Positions 657 through 11,248 of a stretch of 11,349 nucleotides of DNA are shown here, in pieces. The notes beneath the pieces are model-generated. The model was not told the DNA's origin, did not search any database, and saw only the letters and a list, made by a program, of their open reading frames with translations. How positions within the stretch are numbered: position 1 is the first letter of the stretch; every line of letters begins with the position of its first letter. The stretch is taken from contig DHJA01000021.1 of assembly GCA_002404095.1 (NCBI GenBank), forward strand, positions 1 through 11,349, given 5' to 3'. The position numbers and the translations under genes are program-made. Source of the DNA: Planctomycetaceae bacterium UBA4732. Lineage in GTDB: Bacteria > Planctomycetota > Planctomycetia > Gemmatales > Gemmataceae.

Positions 657-3209
657 ATGTTCCAGCAGCGATTTCAATGGGTCTTGCGGGCCTTCTGCGC
701 CGCATGCGCCCTCATCCTCTCCCTCGGCCGTTCGTCCGGCAACGACCTGCCCGCGGACGGAGCCGGGCTTGCGTCCCAGGCCCAAGCCATCCTGCATAAG
801 CATTGCTTCGACTGTCATGGTAAAAACCCCAAGAAGCTCCGGGGCGACCTCAACCTCTTCGACCGTACCCACCTTGACGACGCGGAACGCAAGATCGTCG
901 TGGCGAAAGCCCCCGACAAGTCCGAACTGATCTCGCGCGTCGGGTCCGACGACGACAGCCTCCGAATGCCGCCCGATCCGCGCCCCCGCCTCTCCGACGC
1001 CGAGCGCAAAACCCTCCACGATTGGGTGGCCGCCGGGGCCGTCGCCTGGCCCGTGGCGGCCCCAGCCGTCGCCGCGGAGCCAGCGGCGCCCGTCGAGAAC
1101 CTCGCGGCGTCCGTGAAGGAGCTGTTGCGCGGCAACTGTTTCGACTGCCACGGCGGCTCGCGCACCAACGCCGGCGTCAAAATTCTGGACCGCGAACTGC
1201 TCGTCAACAAGAAAAAGCTCGTCCCCGGCAAGCCGGACGAATCCATGCTATTCCAACTCGTGACCGCAACGGACGACTCGGTCATGCCGCCGGCAGGCCG
1301 GCCGCGTCTCAAACCCGACGCCGCGGAGCTTATCCGGCGCTGGATCGCTGGCGGCGCGCCGGCGTTCCCCGCCGACGTCGCCGCGGCAGGCGAACCCAAC
1401 AAGGATCCGGCCTTCAAGAACTTCGCTGGCGTCGATTACGTCCTGAAAAAGATCCTGGAAAACGTTCGCACGCTGTCCGCCGAAGATCGCCGCTTCGTGC
1501 GTTACTTCAGCATCAACCACATCCTGACCACCGGGGCCACGGCGGCGGAACTCGACTTGCAGCGCGACGCTCTCGCCAAGGCGATTAACCACCTCTCCTG
1601 GCAAAACCACGTCGTCCGCCTCAAGGCGATCGATCCCCCAGCCAACACCGTCTACGCCCTCGACCTGCGGCACGTCGGCTGGCAGCTGCAGCCGTTCCAG
1701 CAGTGGAAAGGCGGCAAGGGCGTGAGCCGGGCCGACGTCAACATCTTCGACCTCGCCCTGCTCGAATATCCCTATTCCGTCGCCTACGCGGATTCCGACA
1801 CCTTCGACCACTTGACGGAGGAGTTCCTCTATCCGGCCGGCCAAGTGCGTCCCATTCCCTACGTCCGCGCCGACTGGTTTGTCAGCACCGTCACCCTGCC
1901 GCCGCTGTACGAAGACTTTCTCCAATTACCCTTCCAGTTGTCTGAATTGGAGGATCTCCTCGGCGTGGCCGCTCAGGACGACGTGAACGATCACGTGGCG
2001 ATTCGCGCGGGCATGGCCGTTTCGGGCGTGTCGCGCAACAACCGCGTTGTCCAGCGGCACCCGGAGAAATACGGCGCCTTCTGGCAGAGCTTCGACTTCA
2101 AGACCAGCAAGGGGCGCGAGAATATGTTCAAAGACCCCATCGACCTGCACCCCACCGGCGGCGAGGTGGTCTTCAACCTACCCAATGGTTTACAGGGCTA
2201 CTACGTCACCAACGCCCGCGGCGACCGTTTGGAAGCGGCGCCGACCGAGATCGTTACTGACAAGTTCGCCGAGGATAAGACGGTGCGAAACGGGCTGTCG
2301 TGTATGCGCTGCCACGACGTCGGCACGAAGACCTACGCCGACACGATGCGCCCGGCGCTGCTGCAGCTGCCCGGTACACCCGGCTTCGACAAGCGGCTCG
2401 CCCTGGCGCTCTATCCGGAGCAGGCGAAACAGGACGACTTGCTCAAGGAGGACGGCGACCGTTTTCTCGCGGCCATGCAACAAGCGCTGGGCAAGCCGCA
2501 GGGACAGGAGCCGTTGATTCCGGTAACGAAGCGGTTCCTGGACGACCCGATTCCCCTCGCCGGCGCCTCGGGCGAGCTGGGACTGAACGATCCGTCGGGG
2601 CTGGCGTCCGTGTTCAAGATGCCGCAGTTCTCATCGCTGGGTCTGATGCCGTTGTCGGCCAAGGGGGTGGTCCGCCGCGACGCCTGGGAGGACTACTATG
2701 ACCAGATCGTCCGCGCGTTGGGTCTGGGTGTGCCAATCGTGCCGATTGACGGCGTGCTGCGCGGCGACTACCCGGCCTCGGCGCCGCCATTCGAGGTTGT
2801 GCTGAAGACCAACAAGAAAAACAACTCCTTCGAGCCGGGCGACGACCTGGTGGTCAGCGTCGTCAACCACTCCACGAAGCCGATTTACATCGAGCTAGTC
2901 GGCGTCAGCAGCAAGGGCCGGATGGTGATCCTCACCGCACCGGGCGCGGTGGTCGCGGCCGGGCAGGAATATCGCTATCCGCCGGAAGGGTCGCCGGCGA
3001 TCAAGATCAAGCCGGGCTTGGGCCGCGAGCAGATCACCCTGCTGGCCGGAGAAGAGACGTTCCCCGCGGGCCGGCTGCTCCGCGGCAAGGGATTGACCGA
3101 CCGCGTCGTTCATCCGTTTTACGAGTTGGGTAAGCAGAACGGGCGTTATGTGGTAACCAAGGATCCGGCCCGGCTTGTGAAGAAGACTATCGCCATCGAA
3201 ACGCGGTAA
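657..3209 (+). CDS. Secreted planctomycete cytochrome c (PSCyt1-type) protein with DUF4384-like C-terminus
   Basis: This is an 850-residue exported, predicted heme-binding protein. Residues 1-28 form a signal peptide (R5, R11, then a hydrophobic AFCAACALILSLG stretch). Two planctomycete cytochrome c domains follow. The first has C50-F-D-C53-H54 with a distal Met in RMPP (M104). The second has C161-F-D-C164-H165 with a distal Met in VMPP (M210). Residues about 255-700 form a long module containing SRNNRVVQRH (459-468), NLPNGLQGYYV (507-517) and a third heme motif, C549-M-R-C552-H553. I recall this module from other bacterial proteins but know no formal name for it. The C-terminus (about 712-810) has the F-x-P-G-D, I-Y-I-E-L-V and I-K-P-G pattern of DUF4384, a beta domain often seen in caspase-like proteins. 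AGGAG at 643-647, 9 nt before the ATG, supports the start. Binding of three hemes is inferred from the CxxCH motifs; substrate and partner are unknown. Electron transfer or redox sensing outside the cytoplasmic membrane is the likeliest role. It is the first of three same-strand genes for exported proteins. Confidence 0.85.
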   Translation: MFQQRFQWVLRAFCAACALILSLGRSSGNDLPADGAGLASQAQAILHKHCFDCHGKNPKKLRGDLNLFDRTHLDDAERKIVVAKAPDKSELISRVGSDDDSLRMPPDPRPRLSDAERKTLHDWVAAGAVAWPVAAPAVAAEPAAPVENLAASVKELLRGNCFDCHGGSRTNAGVKILDRELLVNKKKLVPGKPDESMLFQLVTATDDSVMPPAGRPRLKPDAAELIRRWIAGGAPAFPADVAAAGEPNKDPAFKNFAGVDYVLKKILENVRTLSAEDRRFVRYFSINHILTTGATAAELDLQRDALAKAINHLSWQNHVVRLKAIDPPANTVYALDLRHVGWQLQPFQQWKGGKGVSRADVNIFDLALLEYPYSVAYADSDTFDHLTEEFLYPAGQVRPIPYVRADWFVSTVTLPPLYEDFLQLPFQLSELEDLLGVAAQDDVNDHVAIRAGMAVSGVSRNNRVVQRHPEKYGAFWQSFDFKTSKGRENMFKDPIDLHPTGGEVVFNLPNGLQGYYVTNARGDRLEAAPTEIVTDKFAEDKTVRNGLSCMRCHDVGTKTYADTMRPALLQLPGTPGFDKRLALALYPEQAKQDDLLKEDGDRFLAAMQQALGKPQGQEPLIPVTKRFLDDPIPLAGASGELGLNDPSGLASVFKMPQFSSLGLMPLSAKGVVRRDAWEDYYDQIVRALGLGVPIVPIDGVLRGDYPASAPPFEVVLKTNKKNNSFEPGDDLVVSVVNHSTKPIYIELVGVSSKGRMVILTAPGAVVAAGQEYRYPPEGSPAIKIKPGLGREQITLLAGEETFPAGRLLRGKGLTDRVVHPFYELGKQNGRYVVTKDPARLVKKTIAIETR

Positions 3210-3432
3210 GGGGGCCTGGGCGCGGGAGGGGGCGAGGAGACCTCGCCCCTACGGTTGTTAGAGATTGGGGCGAGGTCTCCTCGCCCATCGCGGGTAGGGG
3301 CGGGGTTTCCCCGCCCGTCCTGGGTAGGGGCGAGGTCTCCTCGCCCATCGCGGGTAGGGGCGAGGTCTCCTCGCCCATGTAGAACAGGCGTATAAGCTGA
3401 CATCCAAACATCAACCTCTAAAGGAGTCCGCA
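3210..3432. repeat. Array of GC-rich palindromes with 30-bp period
   Basis: Four tandem units start at 3267, 3297, 3327 and 3357, an exact 30-bp period. Each has a 20-bp palindromic core of the form GGGGCGAGG-TCT-CCTCGCCC and a 10-bp linker (ATCGCGGGTA twice, GTCCTGGGTA once). A fifth palindrome at 3229-3249 lies in opposite orientation (stem GGGGCGAGG/CCTCGCCCC, loop AGA) and ends in CCCCTAC. The unit at 3297 has GGGGCGGGG/CCCCGCCC instead, so both stem arms changed together. The cores are related to the element at 10639-10767. TATAAG at 3391-3396 lies just after the last unit and may be a -10 box, but no -35 is visible. Known analogues are REP/MITE-type intergenic palindromes; this could also act as a transcription barrier between the flanking genes. 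Confidence 0.8.
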
Positions 3433-4767
3433 ATGTCCACAATTCGCAGAGTTCCCTGGTTCGCGGCGGCGTTGCCCATCGTGTTGGCGCTGGCCGCCCC
3501 GGCCGTCGCCGCCCCCACGCTGGAGGAAGCGCTGGTCGCCAACGCCCCGGCGGTGGTCAAACGTCTGCAAGCGATGGGCTGTCGCAACGTCGGCGTCCTC
3601 AAGTTCCTGGTGACCAAAGACGGCGACAAGCTGAGCGACAACGTCGGTCCCCTGAACATGACTCTGGCGAACCGGCTGGAAATCGCCTTGCTCCTCGCCA
3701 ACGACCCGAAGAAGCCGTTGGGCGTCATCGAACGCGCCAGCGCCGTAGCCCAGCGGACCACCGGCGCCAATCACCTGACGCGCGACGGCCGGCTCAAGCT
3801 GTTCGCGGCCCGCTATCCGTTGGCCTGGGGCAAGGAGCTGGTGGACGCCGACGCCTTCGTGACCCGGACCGCCCTGGTCAGCAAGGACTTGCGCACGCTG
3901 ACGATCAGCCTGCTCGCCTTCACGAAGGAGGACAACAAGCTAGTCGCGTTGGGCGACGACTTCAAGACGGCCAATCGGCCGAGCGCGCTCAGCGAGATGG
4001 GCGAGAGCTTCGTACTGCGCGGCGCCTTCGACGACGGGGCGTTGGATACGAATCCCGCGACGCTAAAGGCGCGTGAGGAAAAGGTGATCCAGGTCGCGGC
4101 CAAGGTCAAGGAGCAGGAGGTGAAGTACCCGCTGCAGGAAAAGGCGCCGCCGGTGACGCTGACGGCGTTCTACGACGGCAAGCCGGCCGCGATCGAGTAC
4201 CGGGACGGCAAGGCGTACCTGCCGGAGCCGCGGGAGGGCCAGAAGGTGGCGTTCGGGCTGAAACGGGACGACTCCAAGGAGCGTTACGGGATCGTGTTGA
4301 AAGTGAACGGCGAAAACACGCTTTACCGGCAGAAGCTGCCGGACATTCAGTGTCGCCGCTGGATCATGGACCCGGGCGAGCGTCCTTACCAAATCAAGGG
4401 TTTCCAGAAGGACAACAAGACCATCGAGGAATTCCGAGTGTTGTCCGCGATGGAGTCCGGCGAGCGCGCGATCAACTACGGCGCCGACGTGGGCACAATC
4501 ATTCTGACCGTTTACCGGGAGTACAAGGGCAAGGTGAAACCGCGCGACAATACGGACGAGGGCGCGGCGTTGGCGGCTGTGACGCGGGGAGATTGGCCCG
4601 AAGAGAAGTCAAAGAATTACAACGCGCTAAAGGCGCGTCTGCTGGAGGACGCGAACCGCGGTCTGATCGTGGAGGGCGCCACGGCCAACAGCGCGGTCAA
4701 GAGCGTGGCGTTCGAGCCAGACCCGGTGCCGGTGATGAGCGTGACGATCATCTACTACCGTCCGTGA
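3433..4767 (+). CDS. Secreted protein of unknown function, CsgG/FlgO-like N-terminus
   Basis: This 444-residue protein has a clear signal peptide (R5, R6, then FAAALPIVLALAAPAVA; cleavage near residue 27). Residues about 30-200 show an alternating pattern resembling the CsgG/FlgO/LpoB class of envelope proteins: NVGVLKF (52-58), LANRLEIALLLAN (78-90), GVIERAS (97-103), then a strand-rich stretch, RTLTISLLAF (154-163). The match is by eye and weak. Residues about 237-365 look like a separate beta domain (VLKVNG 288-293, CRRWIMDPGE 307-316, IKGFQ 321-325, VGTIILTVY 353-361), loosely like DUF4384. No catalytic motif is evident. AAGGAG at 3421-3426, 6 nt before the ATG, fixes the start. It follows the cytochrome gene by 223 bp, which the palindrome array fills, and precedes the TPR-CHAT gene by 100 bp. 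An envelope or periplasmic accessory role is inferred from the signal peptide and neighbours only. Confidence 0.75.
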   Translation: MSTIRRVPWFAAALPIVLALAAPAVAAPTLEEALVANAPAVVKRLQAMGCRNVGVLKFLVTKDGDKLSDNVGPLNMTLANRLEIALLLANDPKKPLGVIERASAVAQRTTGANHLTRDGRLKLFAARYPLAWGKELVDADAFVTRTALVSKDLRTLTISLLAFTKEDNKLVALGDDFKTANRPSALSEMGESFVLRGAFDDGALDTNPATLKAREEKVIQVAAKVKEQEVKYPLQEKAPPVTLTAFYDGKPAAIEYRDGKAYLPEPREGQKVAFGLKRDDSKERYGIVLKVNGENTLYRQKLPDIQCRRWIMDPGERPYQIKGFQKDNKTIEEFRVLSAMESGERAINYGADVGTIILTVYREYKGKVKPRDNTDEGAALAAVTRGDWPEEKSKNYNALKARLLEDANRGLIVEGATANSAVKSVAFEPDPVPVMSVTIIYYRP

Positions 4768-4867: not shown

Positions 4868-6370
4868 ATGTTTCGCACGTTTGGCCGGTTCGGTTGGCTG
4901 CTGGCGGTGGCGTTGGCGGGCTGCGTCCTGAGCGCCGGCATGGCTCGCGCAGCGGACGGCGATGCGGCAGCGCTAGGTACTGCGTTGCGTAAAGGGATTG
5001 CTCTCCAAAAGGCAGGGCAGGCGAAGGAGGCCCTCCCTTACTACGAGCAGTCGCTGGAATTGTCTCAACGGCTTTTCGGACAGAGCCACGAAAACACGGC
5101 CGCCGTCCTCGGTGTGCTGGCAAGCCTGTACGTGGCCAGTACTCTCAACAACCTGGCAAGCCTGTACTCGGACATGGGCCAGTACGCCAAGGCGGAACCC
5201 CTTTTTCAGCGCAGCCTGAAAATTTCTGAAGAGAAGCTCGGCAAGGACGACCCTGACGTGGCCAGTACTCTCAACAACTTGGCGATTCTCTACGAGGCTA
5301 TGGGCCAGTACGCCAAGGCAGAAGCCGTTTTCCAGCGCAGCCTCAAGATCCGGGAGAACAAGCTCGGCAAGGATCACCCCGATGTGGCAAGGAGCCTCAA
5401 CAACCTGGCGGTTCTGTACGATGCTATGGGCCAGTACGCCAAGGCGGAGCCGCTCTACCAACGAAGCCTGAAGATCAAGGAGGATAAACTCGGCAAGGAC
5501 CACCCCGACGTGGCCCAAAGCCTTAACAACTTGGCAAATCTGTACGCGGACATGGGCCAGTACGCCAGGGCGGAGCCGCTCTATCAGCGCAGTTTGCAAA
5601 TCCGTGAGGACAAACTCGGCAAGGACCACCCTGACGTGGCCCAAAGTCTCAACAATCTAGCAAGCCAATACGCGGACATGGGCCAGTACGCCAAGGCGGA
5701 ACCCCTTTTCCAGCGCAGCCTGAAGATTTGGGAAGACAAACTCGGCAATGACCACCCCGACGTGGCCAAATGCCTAAACAACCTGGCGAACTTGTACGCC
5801 ATCCAGAGGAATTGGAAGCAGGCCGCGCAGGCAGCCGACCAAGAGCGCCGTGTCGTCCGCCGCTATGTAGCGAACGCACTCGCCGTTTTATCCGAGAAGG
5901 ATCAGCTTGCCTACCTGGACCACAGGGATGCAAAACAATTCCACATCGCGGAGTCAATCGCTCTCAACCGGCGCGAGGACGCGGCCCCAGCGGCGCTATC
6001 GGCCGGTTGGGTACTAAACGGTAAGGCCGTGGCTCAAGAGTCTCTGGCTCAGCGCGTCCTGGCGGCCCTGGACGCCCGCGACCTCGCCGCGCATCTGGGG
6101 AAGACCAGCGCCCAATCCTCGCGCGCCGAGCCGTGGGTGGAACTGGCCGAGATCCGCAAGGCTCTGCCTGCCGACGCCGTCCTCATCGAAATCAGCAAGT
6201 TTCAAGTGGCCAACTTCGAGGCAAAGGGCCAGGACAAGCACAGGACAAGCATTGGTTGGGCTACCGCTACGCCGCCTGGGTCATTACCGCCGCGGGCGAC
6301 GTGCATATCGTGGACCTGGGGCCGGCCGACGTCATTGAGGACGCCGTCAAGGAGGTGCGCCAGGCTCTGA
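4868..6370 (+). CDS. TPR half of a frameshifted TPR-CHAT protein
   Basis: This 500-codon frame encodes the N-terminal half of an exported TPR-CHAT protein; the part after residue 458 is out-of-frame read-through. GAAAGGA (4853-4859), 8 nt before the ATG, supports the start. The N-terminus is hydrophobic with a lipobox, L16-A-G-C19, so a lipoprotein is possible; cleavage at MARA (25-28) is the alternative. A first TPR-like helix pair spans about 36-75. Kinesin-light-chain-type repeats with a 42-residue period follow, marked by NNLA at 94, 136, 178, 220, 262 and 304, with MGQYAKAEP and KLGKDHPDVA between. Residues 310-455 are a helical linker leading to the CHAT region. Such TPRs bind partner proteins; in this architecture they usually recruit or sense, and CHAT acts. 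The frame is lost at the 11-bp duplication at 6230-6251, after which ORF residues 459-500 resemble nothing and end at 6370. As it stands the product would have no CHAT catalytic domain. Confidence 0.75.
   Translation: MFRTFGRFGWLLAVALAGCVLSAGMARAADGDAAALGTALRKGIALQKAGQAKEALPYYEQSLELSQRLFGQSHENTAAVLGVLASLYVASTLNNLASLYSDMGQYAKAEPLFQRSLKISEEKLGKDDPDVASTLNNLAILYEAMGQYAKAEAVFQRSLKIRENKLGKDHPDVARSLNNLAVLYDAMGQYAKAEPLYQRSLKIKEDKLGKDHPDVAQSLNNLANLYADMGQYARAEPLYQRSLQIREDKLGKDHPDVAQSLNNLASQYADMGQYAKAEPLFQRSLKIWEDKLGNDHPDVAKCLNNLANLYAIQRNWKQAAQAADQERRVVRRYVANALAVLSEKDQLAYLDHRDAKQFHIAESIALNRREDAAPAALSAGWVLNGKAVAQESLAQRVLAALDARDLAAHLGKTSAQSSRAEPWVELAEIRKALPADAVLIEISKFQVANFEAKGQDKHRTSIGWATATPPGSLPPRATCISWTWGRPTSLRTPSRRCARL
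5147..5815 (+). repeat. 126-bp tandem TPR-coding repeats
   Basis: Five full 126-bp units begin at 5147, 5273, 5399, 5525 and 5651, with a partial sixth from 5777. They are highly similar at the DNA level (recurring runs such as ATGGGCCAGTACGCCA), which suggests recent unit duplication or gene conversion and makes unit number prone to change. Just before the array, CTGGCAAGCCTGTAC occurs at 5117-5131 and again at 5153-5167. Confidence 0.85.
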
Positions 6371-7485
6371 CCGACGCGCAAGGTTCCCCCAAGCATCCCA
6401 GCACCATCACGCAGGAGGGCGAGCCTGACGCGGAGAAGGCAATGCTCAAGCCGTTGGCGGCATTGTCAAAACTGGTCTTGGAACCGTTGGCCGAACACAT
6501 CGACGGCAAAAAACGCTGGTACATCAGCCCCGACGCCTCGCTGTGGCTGGTCCCCTGGGCGGCGCTGCCTTTGAAGGACGGCCGCTATGCCGTCGAAGCG
6601 CACACCATCAGCTATCTCGTCAGCGGCCGCGACCTGGCGGCGGTCCCATCGCAGGCCAAGCCGAGCCGGCCGCGCATGATGGCCGACCCCGACTATAACT
6701 TGGGCGTGGCCGAGGCTCGGAGTGTTACGAAAGAACTGGTTGGCAAGGCGGCGGCGCCGGACCCGTCGCTACGCAGCTTGTCCCCCTCCCTTGGCCGCTT
6801 GAGGGCTAAGCGTCTTGACGGCACGGCCGCGGAAGCGCAGGCCGTCAAGCCGGCGTTGGAGAAGTACGCCGGCGAGGAGGCTTGGCTCTACCAGCAGGAC
6901 AAGGCTCTGGAGGGCGTCTTCAAGTCCTTCCGTGGCCCGCGTGTGCTGATACTCAGCACTCACGGCTTCTTTCTTGAAGACCAAGTGGTCGCTCCCTCCG
7001 ACAAGCTCGGCTCGGACGAGAAGCGTCCGGCCCTGGACAAGGAAGGCAAGCCGCTGGAGAATCCGTTGCTGCGTTGCGGCCTCTTGTTGGCCGGCTGCAA
7101 CAACCGCGACCAAGCCAAGGAAGGCGACGAGGACGGCGTACTAACGGGTCTGGAAGTGGCGGGCACCGACCTACGCGGCACCGAGTTGGTGGTGCTGTCG
7201 GCGTGCGAGACCGGCCTGGGCGAAGTGCATAACGGCGAAGGCGTGGCCGGCCTGCGTCAAGCATTCCAACTGGCGGGAGCGCGGGCGGTGGCGGCGACGT
7301 TGTGGCAGATCCCCGACCGCGAGTCAGCCAAGCTCATGGGCGACTTCTTCGCCAATTTAGGGGACGGCAAAGGTAAGGCGGAAGCGTTGCGCGAAGCGCA
7401 GTTGGCGATGATCCGGTCGCGGCGTGAGAAGAACGCCGCCGCCCATCCGTTCTTCTGGGCCGCCTTCACCCTCACCGGACAGTGA
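6133..7485 (+). CDS. CHAT half of a frameshifted TPR-CHAT protein
   Basis: This frame carries the C-terminal caspase-like CHAT peptidase domain (clan CD, related to separase and caspases). The ATG at 6133 is only the first in the open frame. Codons up to 6240 are an out-of-frame shadow of the TPR frame, and meaningful sequence starts at QDKHWLGY, encoded from 6241. I see no convincing ribosome binding site, so independent translation is doubtful. Family features are WYISPDASLWLVPWAALPL (a conserved CHAT core), the histidine of STHGFF (codon 6961-6963) and the cysteine of SACETGLGE (codon 7204-7206). These are the expected catalytic pair, followed by GVAGLRQAFQLAGARAVAATLW and a C-terminal PFFWAAFTLTG. 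Both catalytic residues are intact, so the domain has not visibly decayed. With one 11-bp copy removed it continues the TPR half into an 868-residue protein with His695 and Cys776. The stop codon lies 77 bp from the stop of the convergent kinase gene. Targets are unknown. Confidence 0.7.
   Translation: MGGTGRDPQGSACRRRPHRNQQVSSGQLRGKGPGQAQDKHWLGYRYAAWVITAAGDVHIVDLGPADVIEDAVKEVRQALTDAQGSPKHPSTITQEGEPDAEKAMLKPLAALSKLVLEPLAEHIDGKKRWYISPDASLWLVPWAALPLKDGRYAVEAHTISYLVSGRDLAAVPSQAKPSRPRMMADPDYNLGVAEARSVTKELVGKAAAPDPSLRSLSPSLGRLRAKRLDGTAAEAQAVKPALEKYAGEEAWLYQQDKALEGVFKSFRGPRVLILSTHGFFLEDQVVAPSDKLGSDEKRPALDKEGKPLENPLLRCGLLLAGCNNRDQAKEGDEDGVLTGLEVAGTDLRGTELVVLSACETGLGEVHNGEGVAGLRQAFQLAGARAVAATLWQIPDRESAKLMGDFFANLGDGKGKAEALREAQLAMIRSRREKNAAAHPFFWAAFTLTGQ
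6230..6251 (+). repeat. Perfect 11-bp tandem duplication causing the frameshift
   Basis: CAGGACAAGCA occurs at 6230-6240 and immediately again at 6241-6251. Read from the first copy the protein runs GQDKHRTSIGW and then degenerates. Read from the second copy it runs QDKHWLGYRYAAW, normal CHAT-type sequence. Deleting one copy joins the two frames without any other change and gives a 2,607-bp gene from 4868 to 7485. The event is therefore a recent replication slip, a reversible on/off switch or an assembly/sequencing error. Confidence 0.9.
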
Positions 7486-7486
7486 G

Positions 7487-7570
7487 CGAAGTGACAGTAA
7501 TCCTCGGGCGGGAGAGGAGCCTTCGCTCCTCTCCCCCCCTTCACCGATTCCGCCGGGGGCCGTCACTTCG
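7487..7570. terminator. Convergent-gene hairpin, likely bidirectional terminator
   Basis: An 11-bp perfect stem, GGGAGAGGAGC (7510-7520) with GCTCCTCTCCC (7525-7535), closes on a CTTC loop between the stops of the convergent CHAT and kinase genes. It has no T-run on either strand. A 9-bp inverted repeat, CGAAGTGAC (7487-7495) and GTCACTTCG (7562-7570), encloses it and overlaps the kinase stop codon. Position and stem strength favour transcription termination for both genes. Confidence 0.5.
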
Positions 7571-9851
7571 ATCCGTCCCAGATCCGCACCGTGTGGTCAA
7601 GGCTTCCGGAAACCAGGTAGCGCCCGCCGCCCGCGAAGACTACCCCCATCACCGCCAACCGGTGGCCTCGGAGGCTGAGCAACTCCAATCCAGTGGCCGT
7701 GTCCCATAGCTTGATCTCGTGGTCCCAACTTCCTGTCGCCAGCCGCCGGCCGTCCGGGCTGAAGGCGACCGCCACGGGCCGCCCCGCGTGTCCGCGCAGC
7801 CGATGTTCCACCTGGCCCGTCTGCGCCGACCAGATCAGGATTTCGCCCTCGTCCGGCTCGTCCGCGTGAACGCGACCCCCGGCCGAGGCCACTGTCCGTC
7901 CGTCCGGGCTGAATGCCAGGGCCGCGACCGGCAGACCGTGACCCCGGAAGACCAAACGCTCCTCTCCGCTACCACTGTCCCAAAGGCGCACGGTCTGGTC
8001 ATGGCTCGCGGTGGCCAGGACGGCGCCGTCCTGGCGATAGGCCAACCCGGACACGCGGCTCGTGTGACCAGTCAGAGTGTGGACCTTCTCCCCGGTATCG
8101 ACGCGCCAGACGCCGACCTCTCCCGGCCCGTCGCCGCCGAAGGCTGCGACCGCGACCTCCAGGCCTGATGGATGAAAGGCGACGCACGACAACGGGCCAG
8201 AACCCGCCGCGAATTCCGTCCGCTTTTCGCCGGTACGCGCGTCCCAGATGATCAACCGGCCGTCCTCTCCCGCCGAGGCGAGGCTGTCGCCGTCGGGGCT
8301 GAAGGCCACCCAGTTCACGCTGCCCCGGTGTTCGGACAGCACCTGCATTGCCTCTCCGGTGGCCGCTTCCCACAAGCGCACGGAGCCGTCGCCGCTGGCC
8401 GACGCGATGCGCGTCCCGTCGCGGCTGACCGCGACGCAACTGACGCCCCGCGTGTGGCCCTCCAGCACACGCTCTTCCGTGCCATCGACCCGCCGTCGAA
8501 GGTAGTTCCACTCCCATGCGCGCAATTCCTCCGAACAGAGGTTGAGCTGCTCGGAAGCCCAGGCCGGCTTGCCAGCCGATAGTTCGCGGTCCGCCAAGGC
8601 GACGCGATTGAGGTACAGCTGTCCCTCGACCTCCCGCCGCTGCTCCGCCTCCGCGACCACGCGCCGCGCTTCCGTCGCCCGCCCGGCCTCCGCTTCCCGC
8701 CAGGCGTAGATTACCCAGCCGAGCAAGGAGGCGACCAGCAATAAGGCGGTCCCCGTCAGGCCTGCGGCGGCCGGCTCCCGCCTTACCCACCGGGCCAGGC
8801 GCTCCCCCGTGCCGACAGGCCGCGCGAGGACCGGCCGGCCGGCGAGGAAGCGCCCCAAATCTTCCGCCAGCGCCTGGGCCGTGGGGTACCGTCGGTTCGG
8901 CGCCTTATGCAGACATTTGAGACAGACATTCTCCAAATCGCGCGGCGTCTGCGGTTGCAAGCGCCGCGGCGGCGCCGGCTCTTCGCGCACCACCTGCTGG
9001 ATCGTCATCGCGGCCGTGGCCGCCTTGAACGGCGGTCGGCCCGTCAACAGGTCGTAAAGCACGGCCCCCAGCGCATAAATGTCAGTGGCCGGGCCGATCT
9101 GACGGGTGAGTCCCAGAGCCTGCTCCGGGGCCATGTAACAAGGCGTCCCCATCACCGCCCCGGTCGATGTCAGATCGGATTTCGTCTGATGGGCCAAGCC
9201 GAAATCGACGATCTTGGGCGTTCCGTCGGCGGCCAGCAATACGTTGGCGGGCTTCAAATCGCGGTGTATCACGCCCTTTTCGTGGGCGGCGTGGACGCCC
9301 CGGGCCAGCGCTTCCGTCAGCCGAGCGGCCTCGCGCGGCTCCAGCGGCGTGCCGGCTAGCTTGGCCGCCAAGCTGCCGCCCTCCAGGTATTCCAGGGCCA
9401 GGAAGGGAAGGCCGTTCTCTTCGCCGAGGTCGTAAATCTGGACGATGTTGGGGTGCTGCAGTCGAGCGACGACCTCCGCCTCGCTCCGGAAGCGCGACAG
9501 CTCGGTAGCGCCAGCGTAGCCGCCCGACAAAATCATCTTCAGAGCGACAACGCGGTTGAGCTTGAGGTGCCGGGCCTTGTAGACGACGCCCATACCGCCA
9601 CGGCCCAACTCTCCCAGAATCTGGTATCCGGGGACCATCGGCAGGGCGAGCGACGCGCCGGAGCGAGCGCGGGAGGACTCGTTCATTTCGATGCTGGCGG
9701 CCTTGGTCGCCTCGGGGTCCTCGTCCTCCCCTCCCGCGCCCACGCCGAGAAACCTTTCCATTGACGCGGTCGCGTCCCCGTCCGTGCGCAGGTCCGGTTG
9801 AACCTGTGTAGGCGGGATTGTTTCCCCGGCGGGGTCCGTAATGTCCGTCAT
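7563..9851 (-). CDS. Membrane Ser/Thr protein kinase with WD40 propeller
   Basis: This 762-residue Hanks-type (PknB-like) kinase phosphorylates Ser/Thr residues of unknown targets. An acidic, low-complexity N-terminus (1-72) precedes a complete kinase domain (about 76-336): glycine loop GRGGMGVV (83-90), lysine K105 in VALK, probable helix-C E124, catalytic loop HRDLKPAN (196-203, D198), DFG (216-218) and APE (241-243). A basic stretch (351-358) leads to one membrane segment, about 364-383. A helical stalk (385-450) follows, then seven WD40 blades (about 462-762) with recurring GH, FSPDG and LWD motifs. The expected topology has the kinase inside and the propeller outside, as a sensor or docking platform. 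Start choice: GGAG at 9861-9864, 9 nt before the ATG. The sigma factor stop lies 25 bp upstream, so the two are almost certainly co-transcribed. All catalytic residues are present and no truncation is seen. Confidence 0.92.
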   Translation of the reverse strand: MTDITDPAGETIPPTQVQPDLRTDGDATASMERFLGVGAGGEDEDPEATKAASIEMNESSRARSGASLALPMVPGYQILGELGRGGMGVVYKARHLKLNRVVALKMILSGGYAGATELSRFRSEAEVVARLQHPNIVQIYDLGEENGLPFLALEYLEGGSLAAKLAGTPLEPREAARLTEALARGVHAAHEKGVIHRDLKPANVLLAADGTPKIVDFGLAHQTKSDLTSTGAVMGTPCYMAPEQALGLTRQIGPATDIYALGAVLYDLLTGRPPFKAATAAMTIQQVVREEPAPPRRLQPQTPRDLENVCLKCLHKAPNRRYPTAQALAEDLGRFLAGRPVLARPVGTGERLARWVRREPAAAGLTGTALLLVASLLGWVIYAWREAEAGRATEARRVVAEAEQRREVEGQLYLNRVALADRELSAGKPAWASEQLNLCSEELRAWEWNYLRRRVDGTEERVLEGHTRGVSCVAVSRDGTRIASASGDGSVRLWEAATGEAMQVLSEHRGSVNWVAFSPDGDSLASAGEDGRLIIWDARTGEKRTEFAAGSGPLSCVAFHPSGLEVAVAAFGGDGPGEVGVWRVDTGEKVHTLTGHTSRVSGLAYRQDGAVLATASHDQTVRLWDSGSGEERLVFRGHGLPVAALAFSPDGRTVASAGGRVHADEPDEGEILIWSAQTGQVEHRLRGHAGRPVAVAFSPDGRRLATGSWDHEIKLWDTATGLELLSLRGHRLAVMGVVFAGGGRYLVSGSLDHTVRIWDGSK

Positions 9852-9876
9852 AGTCCTATGCTCCGCGTCCGCGTCA

Positions 9877-10491
9877 TCAGGAGTGCCTTTCGCTGTTCAG
9901 CCGTTGGTGCAACGTCCCCATCGCGGATTGCCAGCGGCGCTGGACGGTGCGCACCGTGACCTGGAAGAGGTCGGCGACCTCCGCCTGCTTCCAGCCGTGG
10001 TAGAAGATCAGGCCGACGACTTCCCGCTCCTCCACCGGCAGAGCGGCCACCCCCTCATGAAACGCCGCCCAGCGCTCCAGGTCGTCCGGGTCCGTCCGCG
10101 CGTCCGGCGGATCGACGACGGGAGCGCGACCGTCGCGAGCGGCCGCTTGACTGGAATGATTGGCGCCGACGCCCATAGGTCCGTGGAAGTGCCGGGCAAG
10201 GTCCAACAATTCGCGGCGCATCTGTTCGGCCGCCAAGCCGAAGAAGCCGCGCACCGAGTCGGGGCGCACGTCGCGCAGCGACCGCAACAGACGAAGCTGG
10301 GCGTTCTGCAGCACGTCCCCCGTTTCGGCCCAGCGGCGGACGGTGGGATAGCTTTTTAGCATCTTGCGGGCCAGTCGTTCCAGGCGGCCGCCGACGCCGC
10401 GCAGCAACTCGTCGCGGGCGGCGAGGTCGCCGGCGCGAACGCGGTCCACCCAGGCGTGTAGTTGCGTGGTGTGGAGGGATGAATCGGCCAT
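9877..10491 (-). CDS. ECF-family RNA polymerase sigma factor
   Basis: This is a 204-residue sigma factor with only regions 2 and 4, as in the ECF class. Region 2 spans about 24-100 (GDVLQNAQLRLLRSL at 58-72 for core and -10 contacts; FFGLAAEQMRRELLDLAR at 83-100). A linker of about 35 residues follows. Region 4 spans about 138-195, with the helix-turn-helix at GWKQAEVADLFQVTVRTVQR (166-185), which should recognise the -35 box. The frame stays open upstream to 10863, but that extension runs through the inverted-repeat element and is low-complexity Pro/Arg/Gly sequence, so I chose the ATG at 10491. GGA lies 10 nt upstream of it; a TTG two codons earlier is possible. No anti-sigma gene is present. 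The kinase gene starts 25 bp downstream, matching planctomycete ECF groups linked to Ser/Thr kinases (ECF43 and ECF59-62 are described examples). Control by phosphorylation is therefore likely but not shown. Confidence 0.88.
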   Translation of the reverse strand: MADSSLHTTQLHAWVDRVRAGDLAARDELLRGVGGRLERLARKMLKSYPTVRRWAETGDVLQNAQLRLLRSLRDVRPDSVRGFFGLAAEQMRRELLDLARHFHGPMGVGANHSSQAAARDGRAPVVDPPDARTDPDDLERWAAFHEGVAALPVEEREVVGLIFYHGWKQAEVADLFQVTVRTVQRRWQSAMGTLHQRLNSERHS

Positions 10492-10589: not shown

Positions 10590-10638
10590 ACTTTTCCCGC
10601 AGCCATTGTCGCATCGGGGTACCCATGTCGATTGTGGG

Positions 10639-10767
10639 GTAGGGGCGGGGTCTCCCCGCCCTTGGCGTCACAGGGCGGGGAGACCGTTCAGTCTTTGGCT
10701 GATCGGCTTTCCGCCGAGTGGGTCTCCCCGCCCTTGGCGTCACAGGGCGGGGAGACCCCGCCCCTAC
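10639..10767. repeat. 129-bp composite inverted-repeat element, MITE-like
   Basis: Two identical 37-bp blocks lie at 10649-10685 and 10721-10757. Each is itself a hairpin: GGTCTCCCCGCCC pairs with GGGCGGGGAGACC over 13 bp around an 11-nt loop, TTGGCGTCACA. The outer ends, GTAGGGGCGG (10639-10648) and CCGCCCCTAC (10758-10767), are perfect inverted repeats of each other, so the whole 129 bp is one large inverted structure around a 35-bp centre (10686-10720). No transposase and no obvious target-site duplication are visible. It belongs to the same palindrome family as the array at 3229-3376 (shared CCCCTAC end and GGGGCGRGG arms). Confidence 0.85.
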
Positions 10768-10951
10768 GGCACCCCCCTCCAAAATCGGGACGGGACGCCC
10801 ACGGCCGCTGTTGTCTTCGGGCGGCGATTCACGCTTACCTGGTGGAGGCAATGAGAACGGCAACCGACCCGTTTCTCAGCCGGCTCCGCATACGGACCCT
10901 TGGTGGGGTTTGTCTGAACCGGCGGCCTCTCAACACGAAAGGAAACGACAC

Positions 10952-11248
10952 ATGCGTACTCTTTGGATCAAACGGTGGGCGGCGGCGCTGGCAACAACCG
11001 TGGCAATCTGTGGTGGAACGGCAACGGCGTCCGAGCCGTACTGCCCGCCGACCTACGTCGTCAAACGGGTGGTCTGTTACGAGACGGCGACCGTCTACGA
11101 AACGCACCGCGAGGCGTATCAGGCTTGCGTCACTCAGTACGATTCCTGCGGCGATCCGTACCACGTCTACAAGACGTGCTACCACGACGTGCGGACGCCG
11201 GTGCAGAAGCAGATCGCCGTCGTTCATTACGAAGCGGTCCCGAAATAA
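10952..11248 (+). CDS. Small secreted Cys/Tyr-rich protein of unknown function
   Basis: This 98-residue protein has a signal peptide (R2, K7, R8, then AAALATTVAICGGTATA; cleavage near residue 26-27). The mature part of about 72 residues has five cysteines (C31, C42, C59, C66, C76) and about ten tyrosines, in repeated short patterns such as YCPPTYVVKRVVCYET and YDSCGDPYHVYKTCYHDV. Disulfide bonding in the envelope is likely; an odd cysteine count leaves one for dimerisation or metal binding. I know similar small proteins only as planctomycete hypotheticals. The frame is open far upstream, but AAAGGA at 10938-10943, 8 nt before this ATG, and the signal peptide directly after it fix the start. 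A strong terminator follows, so it is probably a single-gene transcript. Confidence 0.75.
   Translation: MRTLWIKRWAAALATTVAICGGTATASEPYCPPTYVVKRVVCYETATVYETHREAYQACVTQYDSCGDPYHVYKTCYHDVRTPVQKQIAVVHYEAVPK

Follow-up and report, generated by a model that had tools for sequence, protein, structure and literature searches.

The TPR-CHAT protein Csx29 of Craspase (PDB 8eey, 7xsr, and 8d9f) combines a TPR array with a downstream caspase-like CHAT domain, as do the intact members of the gene family described here. A CHAT domain is also present in DdvA, a transmembrane anti-sigma factor, which is membrane linked like the present family of putative lipoproteins. Reversible phase variation based on sequence duplication has been described for the pneumococcal type 3 locus, cap8E, and tts (Waite 2001/2003, as cited in passages of PMC4022640 and PMC4243769). 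Among the matches listed in literature searches on TPR-CHAT proteins, bacterial CHAT domains, and duplication-based phase variation, no such lesion in a TPR-CHAT gene was found.

Here, we analyze a TPR-CHAT gene split by an 11-base tandem duplication. It lies in a stretch of 11,349 bases (the window), which represents bases 1 to 11349 of contig C24 (21,273 bases) in a 6.8-Mb draft genome of 299 contigs that is 90% complete. We consider it likely that the duplication is a young loss-of-function lesion in a lipoprotein-like TPR-CHAT family with members gained and lost. The locus would show gene loss in a bacterial caspase-like family in a clean and recent form, and it serves mainly as a warning against taking every frameshifted CHAT gene in a draft genome for a switch or an error.

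An 11-base tandem duplication shifts the reading frame

The preliminary description of the window reported an exact 11-bp duplication that splits a TPR-CHAT gene, and both copies of CAGGACAAGCA, as well as both resulting frames, were seen in the sequence (Table 1). Identity at period 11 extends over exactly 11 bases, with no further match at the edges of either copy. The frame of 868 codons previously stated for removal of one copy agrees with the length arithmetic. GC content by codon position switches phase at the repeat, which fits the expectation for a true frameshift. The CAGGACAAGCA pair is the only exact tandem copy with a period of 8 to 60 in the window and is not expected by chance, as 60 dinucleotide-preserving shuffles of the window gave means of 0.0 (period 11) and 0.03 (periods 10 to 60). 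Programmed frameshifting was considered and rejected; a return to the CHAT frame takes a shift of -1 (or +2) between the repeat and position 6370, and no XXXYYYZ heptamer was found in any phase (starts 6225 to 6367). An Rfam search of the window at the gathering threshold returned no matches.

Other features of the window include planctomycete cytochrome domains, identified using Pfam, and two GC-rich intergenic places. Like the 108 kinase matches in the genome and the names given to some homologues, the cytochrome domains point to a planctomycete. The first (3231 to 3380) contains a tandem array of the GGGGCGAGGTCTCCTCGCCC type with a 30-base period and 3.7 copies (3267 to 3378), while similar GGGGCGGGGTCTCCCCGCCC-like motifs occur in the second (10630 to 10770). 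Genes for a WD40 serine/threonine kinase and an ECF sigma factor (PF07638) adjoin the TPR-CHAT genes on the opposite strand (7563 to 10491).

Table 1. Features of the split TPR-CHAT gene in the window
Feature	Position	Strand	Basis or remark
Upstream frame (500 aa): putative signal peptide with lipobox-like LAGC, TPR array, 42 foreign residues, TGA stop	4868..6370	+	Frames, Pfam
12-residue in-frame stretch without counterpart in either close paralogue	5108..5143	+	Alignment, sequence
TPR array, 126-base period, 5.3 copies	5130..5799	+	Repeat search
First copy of CAGGACAAGCA	6230..6240	+	Sequence
Second copy of CAGGACAAGCA, directly adjoining	6241..6251	+	Sequence; no repeat here in either paralogue
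Downstream CHAT frame, stop included	6256..7485	+	Frame list
GTG, start of database protein P0240 (CHAT half alone, 391 aa)	6310..6312	+	Protein database
Pfam CHAT domain	6448..7482	+	Pfam
CHAT His codon (STHGFF)	6961..6963	+	Sequence; His in 44/46 aligned rows
CHAT Cys codon (SACETG)	7204..7206	+	Sequence; Cys in 45/46 aligned rows

The two halves of the split gene

Within the upstream frame, six stretches each were matched by Pfam TPR_12 and TPR_10, and the final 42 of the 500 residues are foreign to the family. Its N terminus carries what, judged by eye, looks like a signal peptide with a lipobox-like LAGC motif. The claim that all TPRs are undamaged proved a little too strong, as the 12 residues near the start of the array (Table 1), which look like a partial TPR unit, are extra relative to the paralogues, though in frame. 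Using PADLOC, the upstream half matched a generic TPR model alone and the CHAT half gave no match.

The downstream half belongs to the CHAT family by its match to PF12770 (E value of 1.6e-69; 235 bits versus a cutoff of 24). It keeps the whole Pfam domain as well as both conserved residues, and the codons for His and Cys, said earlier to remain, are in place. These residues are presumably the active-site pair.

To place the break relative to the fold, the intact paralogue (814 aa) was modeled with AlphaFold2 from 46 sequences, with a mean pLDDT of 86.8 and a pTM of 0.85. Two strands are predicted just ahead of the CHAT fold (residues 383 to 394 and 405 to 416), and the repeat site corresponds to the loop between them (395 to 404). 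The break would therefore fall inside a predicted hairpin rather than at a domain border, which argues against two working proteins arising from a clean split. In such an arrangement, the CHAT half would be translated alone, either from an internal start or through reinitiation beyond the upstream stop codon, with the halves acting separately or together. Retention of the complete domain with both conserved residues is in its favor, as are the start of a database protein at GTG 6310 and the presence of in-frame starts, such as ATG 6442 with GGAG six bases ahead; no clear ribosome-binding site precedes GTG 6310. The 391-aa product would also be without the second strand of the hairpin and without a signal peptide, and the gene is unsplit at this site in all 46 hand-picked aligned sequences. 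Moreover, GGAGAAGGCAATG is coding in the intact frame, and its EKAM residues are also found in paralogues. A working split gene is therefore judged highly improbable.

Loss of function by simple inactivation is the reading that we prefer. From the model, the duplication is predicted to fall in the loop of the beta hairpin connecting the TPR part with the caspase-like CHAT fold. The protein now read by the cell would be exported and carry the TPRs, but would end in the 42 foreign residues and have no protease-like domain, while the CHAT half, devoid of the signal peptide and part of the hairpin, would probably not be made in useful amounts. The halves would have no separate function.

The single-copy frame is most likely ancestral

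A search of the same genome with the 181 bases around the site identified three places: the window, a paralogue on contig C284, and a second copy on C24. The latter two share 85 and 83% identity, respectively, with the window around the site, and both are without the extra 11 bases. The C24 paralogue (C24:11619-14063) lies approximately 4.1 kb downstream; it has an open frame of 814 aa and no repeat, and the frame of the C284 paralogue is open across the site, with a TGA further on. A small secreted-looking gene (10952 to 11248) lies upstream of the intact C24 paralogue and has a counterpart upstream of the C284 paralogue; thus, the two-gene unit seems to have been copied.

To extend the comparison, an alignment of 46 rows was used, comprising the intact paralogue and 45 hand-picked homologues, the C284 protein included. 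In all 46, the site is read through without a duplication, from the strand VLIEI.. to ..RYAAW. This segment ranges from 45 to 53 aa, with one row at 89, and the EAKGQDK residues found at the window's break are also kept in two aligned rows. As the two paralogues and every aligned row read through the site, the single-copy frame is most likely the ancestral state, and the proposed check against the closest homologues bears out the one-copy frame. The contrary case raised in the preliminary description, that close relatives all carry two copies, does not hold, since the duplication is absent from 2/2 close paralogues and from 46/46 rows (those two included).

Beyond this genome, the best full-length CHAT matches were 51 to 52% identical (149 genomes searched, its own apparently counted). 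One scan of genome contigs for named relatives gave a single 26% match, to the TPR part. The last 142 residues of the CHAT half share 82% identity with a contig-end fragment from a genome of another family (G131:C423:13-432; L041), followed by matches at 70% (G132) and 68% (G135).

The break is recent

The age of the break was approached through changes private to each of three paralogues across 398 codons of the CHAT half. The window lineage carries 46 synonymous and 17 nonsynonymous private changes, compared with 52 and 30 in the intact C24 copy and 25 and 10 in C284. Between the window and C284, dN is 0.0303 and dS is 0.3455. The substitutions still look purifying, and no stop was found within the 409 codons of the CHAT half. 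This pattern points to a recent break, in line with the earlier view that it is very recent, since the CHAT half of the split gene fares as well as those of the paralogues. Measured against the other two lineages, at most approximately 10% of its private changes can postdate the loss of constraint, a rough estimate, as C284 is itself broken.

The gene accordingly resembles a recent pseudogene in having a broken frame with intact homologues, while the decay that accumulates in pseudogenes (an excess of nonsynonymous changes and more stops) was not seen in the CHAT half. Either the break is too recent to show decay or the gene is not dead, and frequent switching back on of the gene would be equally compatible with this absence. 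We favor a spontaneous 11-base tandem duplication that would recently have inactivated one gene of a small TPR-CHAT family whose products are lipoprotein-like and probably exported.

Assembly error and transposon excision

An artefact, in which the living strain has one copy and the second arose by assembly or sequencing error, was weighed because the genome is a draft (299 contigs, 90% complete) whose near-identical paralogues (83 and 85%) could mislead an assembler. Mixing of these paralogues would not produce the repeat, however, as neither contains it. In the protein database, P0121 (461 aa; a cluster of three) ends in the exact shifted tail of the window, and its one contig, of 1565 bases, is not C24. 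P0240 represents the CHAT half alone in a cluster of seven on three contigs, the longest of which is 21,293 bases, compared with 21,273 for C24. Both records may stem from the same sample or reads as C24, and they support the two-copy allele without proving independence. No intact version was listed at high identity in a protein database search with a length limit of 875 aa, at which 868 aa is admissible; this search was at the level of clusters.

To gauge how often such repeats occur, 40 contig pieces totaling 554,306 bases (15,887 of them N) were sampled. Seventy exact tandem copies with a period of 8 to 60 were identified, of which 39 had a length divisible by three. None of the remaining 31 split a long frame as the window's copy does (by eye), and several sit inside one long frame that stays open. 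In the nearest case, L098:14624, the phase of the two frames is right but a further stop separates them, and it was not counted. The window's event thus stands out in the sample and does not point to poor assembly in general. With the broken tail recurring on the 1565-base contig and the CHAT half recorded as a protein in a three-contig cluster, the suggestion of an artefact seems very improbable, even if the reads are possibly common with C24.

A target-site duplication left by an excised insertion sequence would also give two adjoining copies. Insertion sequences rarely excise without leaving any base behind. The absence of microhomology past the 11 bases between the copies fits such a scar, and the genome contains nine DDE_Tnp_1 matches, eight of them over the cutoff. 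However, in the clearest element, which has both a transposase and inverted ends (C240; L115), the flanking repeats are 9 bases long. One locus of the background sample (L084) has an 11-base direct repeat next to ends with 13 of 16 inverted positions in agreement, yet this repeat occurs as three copies with unequal spacing. The transposase survey of the genome covered DDE_Tnp_1. Overall, a transposon scar is regarded as very unlikely, and a spontaneous duplication remains the preferred origin.

Damage elsewhere in the CHAT family

Nine CHAT matches were identified in the genome. Apart from the window gene, two contain a TGA inside the domain, two are 5'-truncated remnants (C74:35232 and C74:36908), and one is without TPRs. 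C24:11619 and C216 are intact-looking, and C283 has an open 749-codon frame that may have lost its start, as it contains nothing matching the first 53 residues of C216. In the C284 paralogue (L005, 373 to 375, minus strand), a TGA replaces a Cys codon kept in 42 of the 46 aligned sequences, cutting off the CHAT Cys and sparing the His. The copy at C74:32201 combines a TGA in CHAT, at the position of a Trp in C216 and C283, with an out-of-frame insertion near its start. A changed genetic code was rejected as an explanation of these TGA codons, as genes of the window end in TGA (e.g., 7483 to 7485) and relatives have two different residues, Cys and Trp, at the affected positions.

The C74 copies form part of a second TPR-CHAT subfamily (L119; G000:C74:29000-39000), at 1649 to 4275, 6233 to 6595, and 7909 to 8364, with the Trp-to-TGA change at 3499 to 3501. 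The two remnants that follow the damaged copy share 84 and 90% identity with that on C216. In the CHAT gene without a TPR array on C269 (L122; G000:C269:88500-93500; 1419 to 2627, minus strand), regions homologous to C216 residues 25 to 72 and 676 to 1029 adjoin in one frame, which links the beginning of a TPR-CHAT gene directly to the CHAT part.

Stops were present in two of the nine CHAT matches versus 2 of 108 kinase matches in the same genome (Fisher P = 0.03), a weak excess. Among the CHAT rows listed for other genomes, none of 142 had a stop, as counted by hand in the best 150 rows, 8 of which are from this genome; these rows omit weaker matches, where damaged genes would be more common. 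A CHAT row of another genome in a separate search (G079:C271) holds a TGA.

Three genes carry three different lesions, namely, the 11-base duplication, a TGA at a near-invariant Cys, and a TGA at a Trp with an out-of-frame insertion, and each removes the CHAT Cys from the TPR frame. It could be proposed that selection repeatedly disconnects the CHAT effector from an exported TPR sensor, with the 11-base duplication the one reversible form and the family composed of mostly silenced, partly revivable death or signaling effectors. We give this proposal little credence. If selection for the recurrent damage were shown, this would point indirectly to a cost of these putative exported effectors for the producing cell. 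Under simple loss, which we favor, the cell would tolerate inactivation of the window gene because it retains one or more intact close paralogues, assumed to be redundant, and because gain and loss of such genes are ongoing in this genome.

A reversible switch is unlikely

The duplication was initially suggested to act as an on/off switch, whereby slippage removes or adds the 11-base unit, so that some cells of the population produce the complete TPR-CHAT protein. Precise loss of a perfect tandem copy is indeed feasible, the CHAT half is without decay, and reversible silencing by spontaneous sequence duplications is known in pneumococcal capsule genes, according to passages of PMC4022640 and PMC4243769. 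However, the protein records found show the two-copy allele alone, and the site has no repeat in the paralogues or homologues. Two copies of an 11-base unit make a poor contingency tract and do not amount to the hypermutable tract of a phase-variable gene. The stops, out-of-frame insertion, and truncations of the sister genes are also not slippage switches. For insertions of up to 9 bases, a passage of PMC4022640 on pneumococcal capsule genes, which cites Waite 2001 and 2003, gives reversion as at most approximately 1e-5. In principle, the window gene could revert if one copy were lost, though probably only rarely. The on/off switch is accordingly considered very unlikely, and inactivation of one family member is retained as the better explanation.

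Comparison with known systems

As far as the cited passages of PMC4022640 and PMC4243769 describe them, the pneumococcal capsule genes resemble the window gene in that duplication within an open frame inactivates the gene and precise loss is possible in principle. They differ in showing reversible phase variation, whereas one allele was seen here, in an unrelated gene and organism. Similarly, frameshift indels and scars are treated as reversible silencing in PMC8339072; the lesions are likewise frameshifts in otherwise intact genes, but that source draws on 5977 isolates with disrupted and restored frames, in contrast to one draft genome with no restored allele.

When the CHAT half was compared by sequence with solved chains, DdvA (PDB 8rot and 8rw5) was the sole meaningful match (E value of 0.0005). 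The match is limited to query residues 300 to 386, on the Cys side, and the window gene has no visible anti-sigma part. An ECF sigma gene lies near the window gene, but on the opposite strand and with the kinase gene between them.

Using the model of the intact paralogue as a Foldseek query, the top matches were Craspase TPR-CHAT (Csx29) structures and kinesin light chain TPRs (34 to 48% identity). On that paralogue, 8eey and others share the TPR-CHAT architecture and fold, with 12 to 14% identity between Csx29 and the model and moderate TM-scores of 0.32 to 0.47 by query length. PADLOC matched the paralogue to a generic TPR model (E value of 2.1e-11) and a weak CARF model (E value of 0.0006) only. 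A RAMP-type Cas7-11 partner (PF03787) gave no matches in the 90% complete genome, with 4 of 14 controls positive. The window family was not assigned to Craspase, given that no RAMP protein was found in the genome and that the family appears to carry a signal peptide. It shares with Csx29 the order of a TPR array and a caspase-like domain and, unlike Csx29, combines them with a putative signal peptide and kinesin-light-chain-like TPRs.
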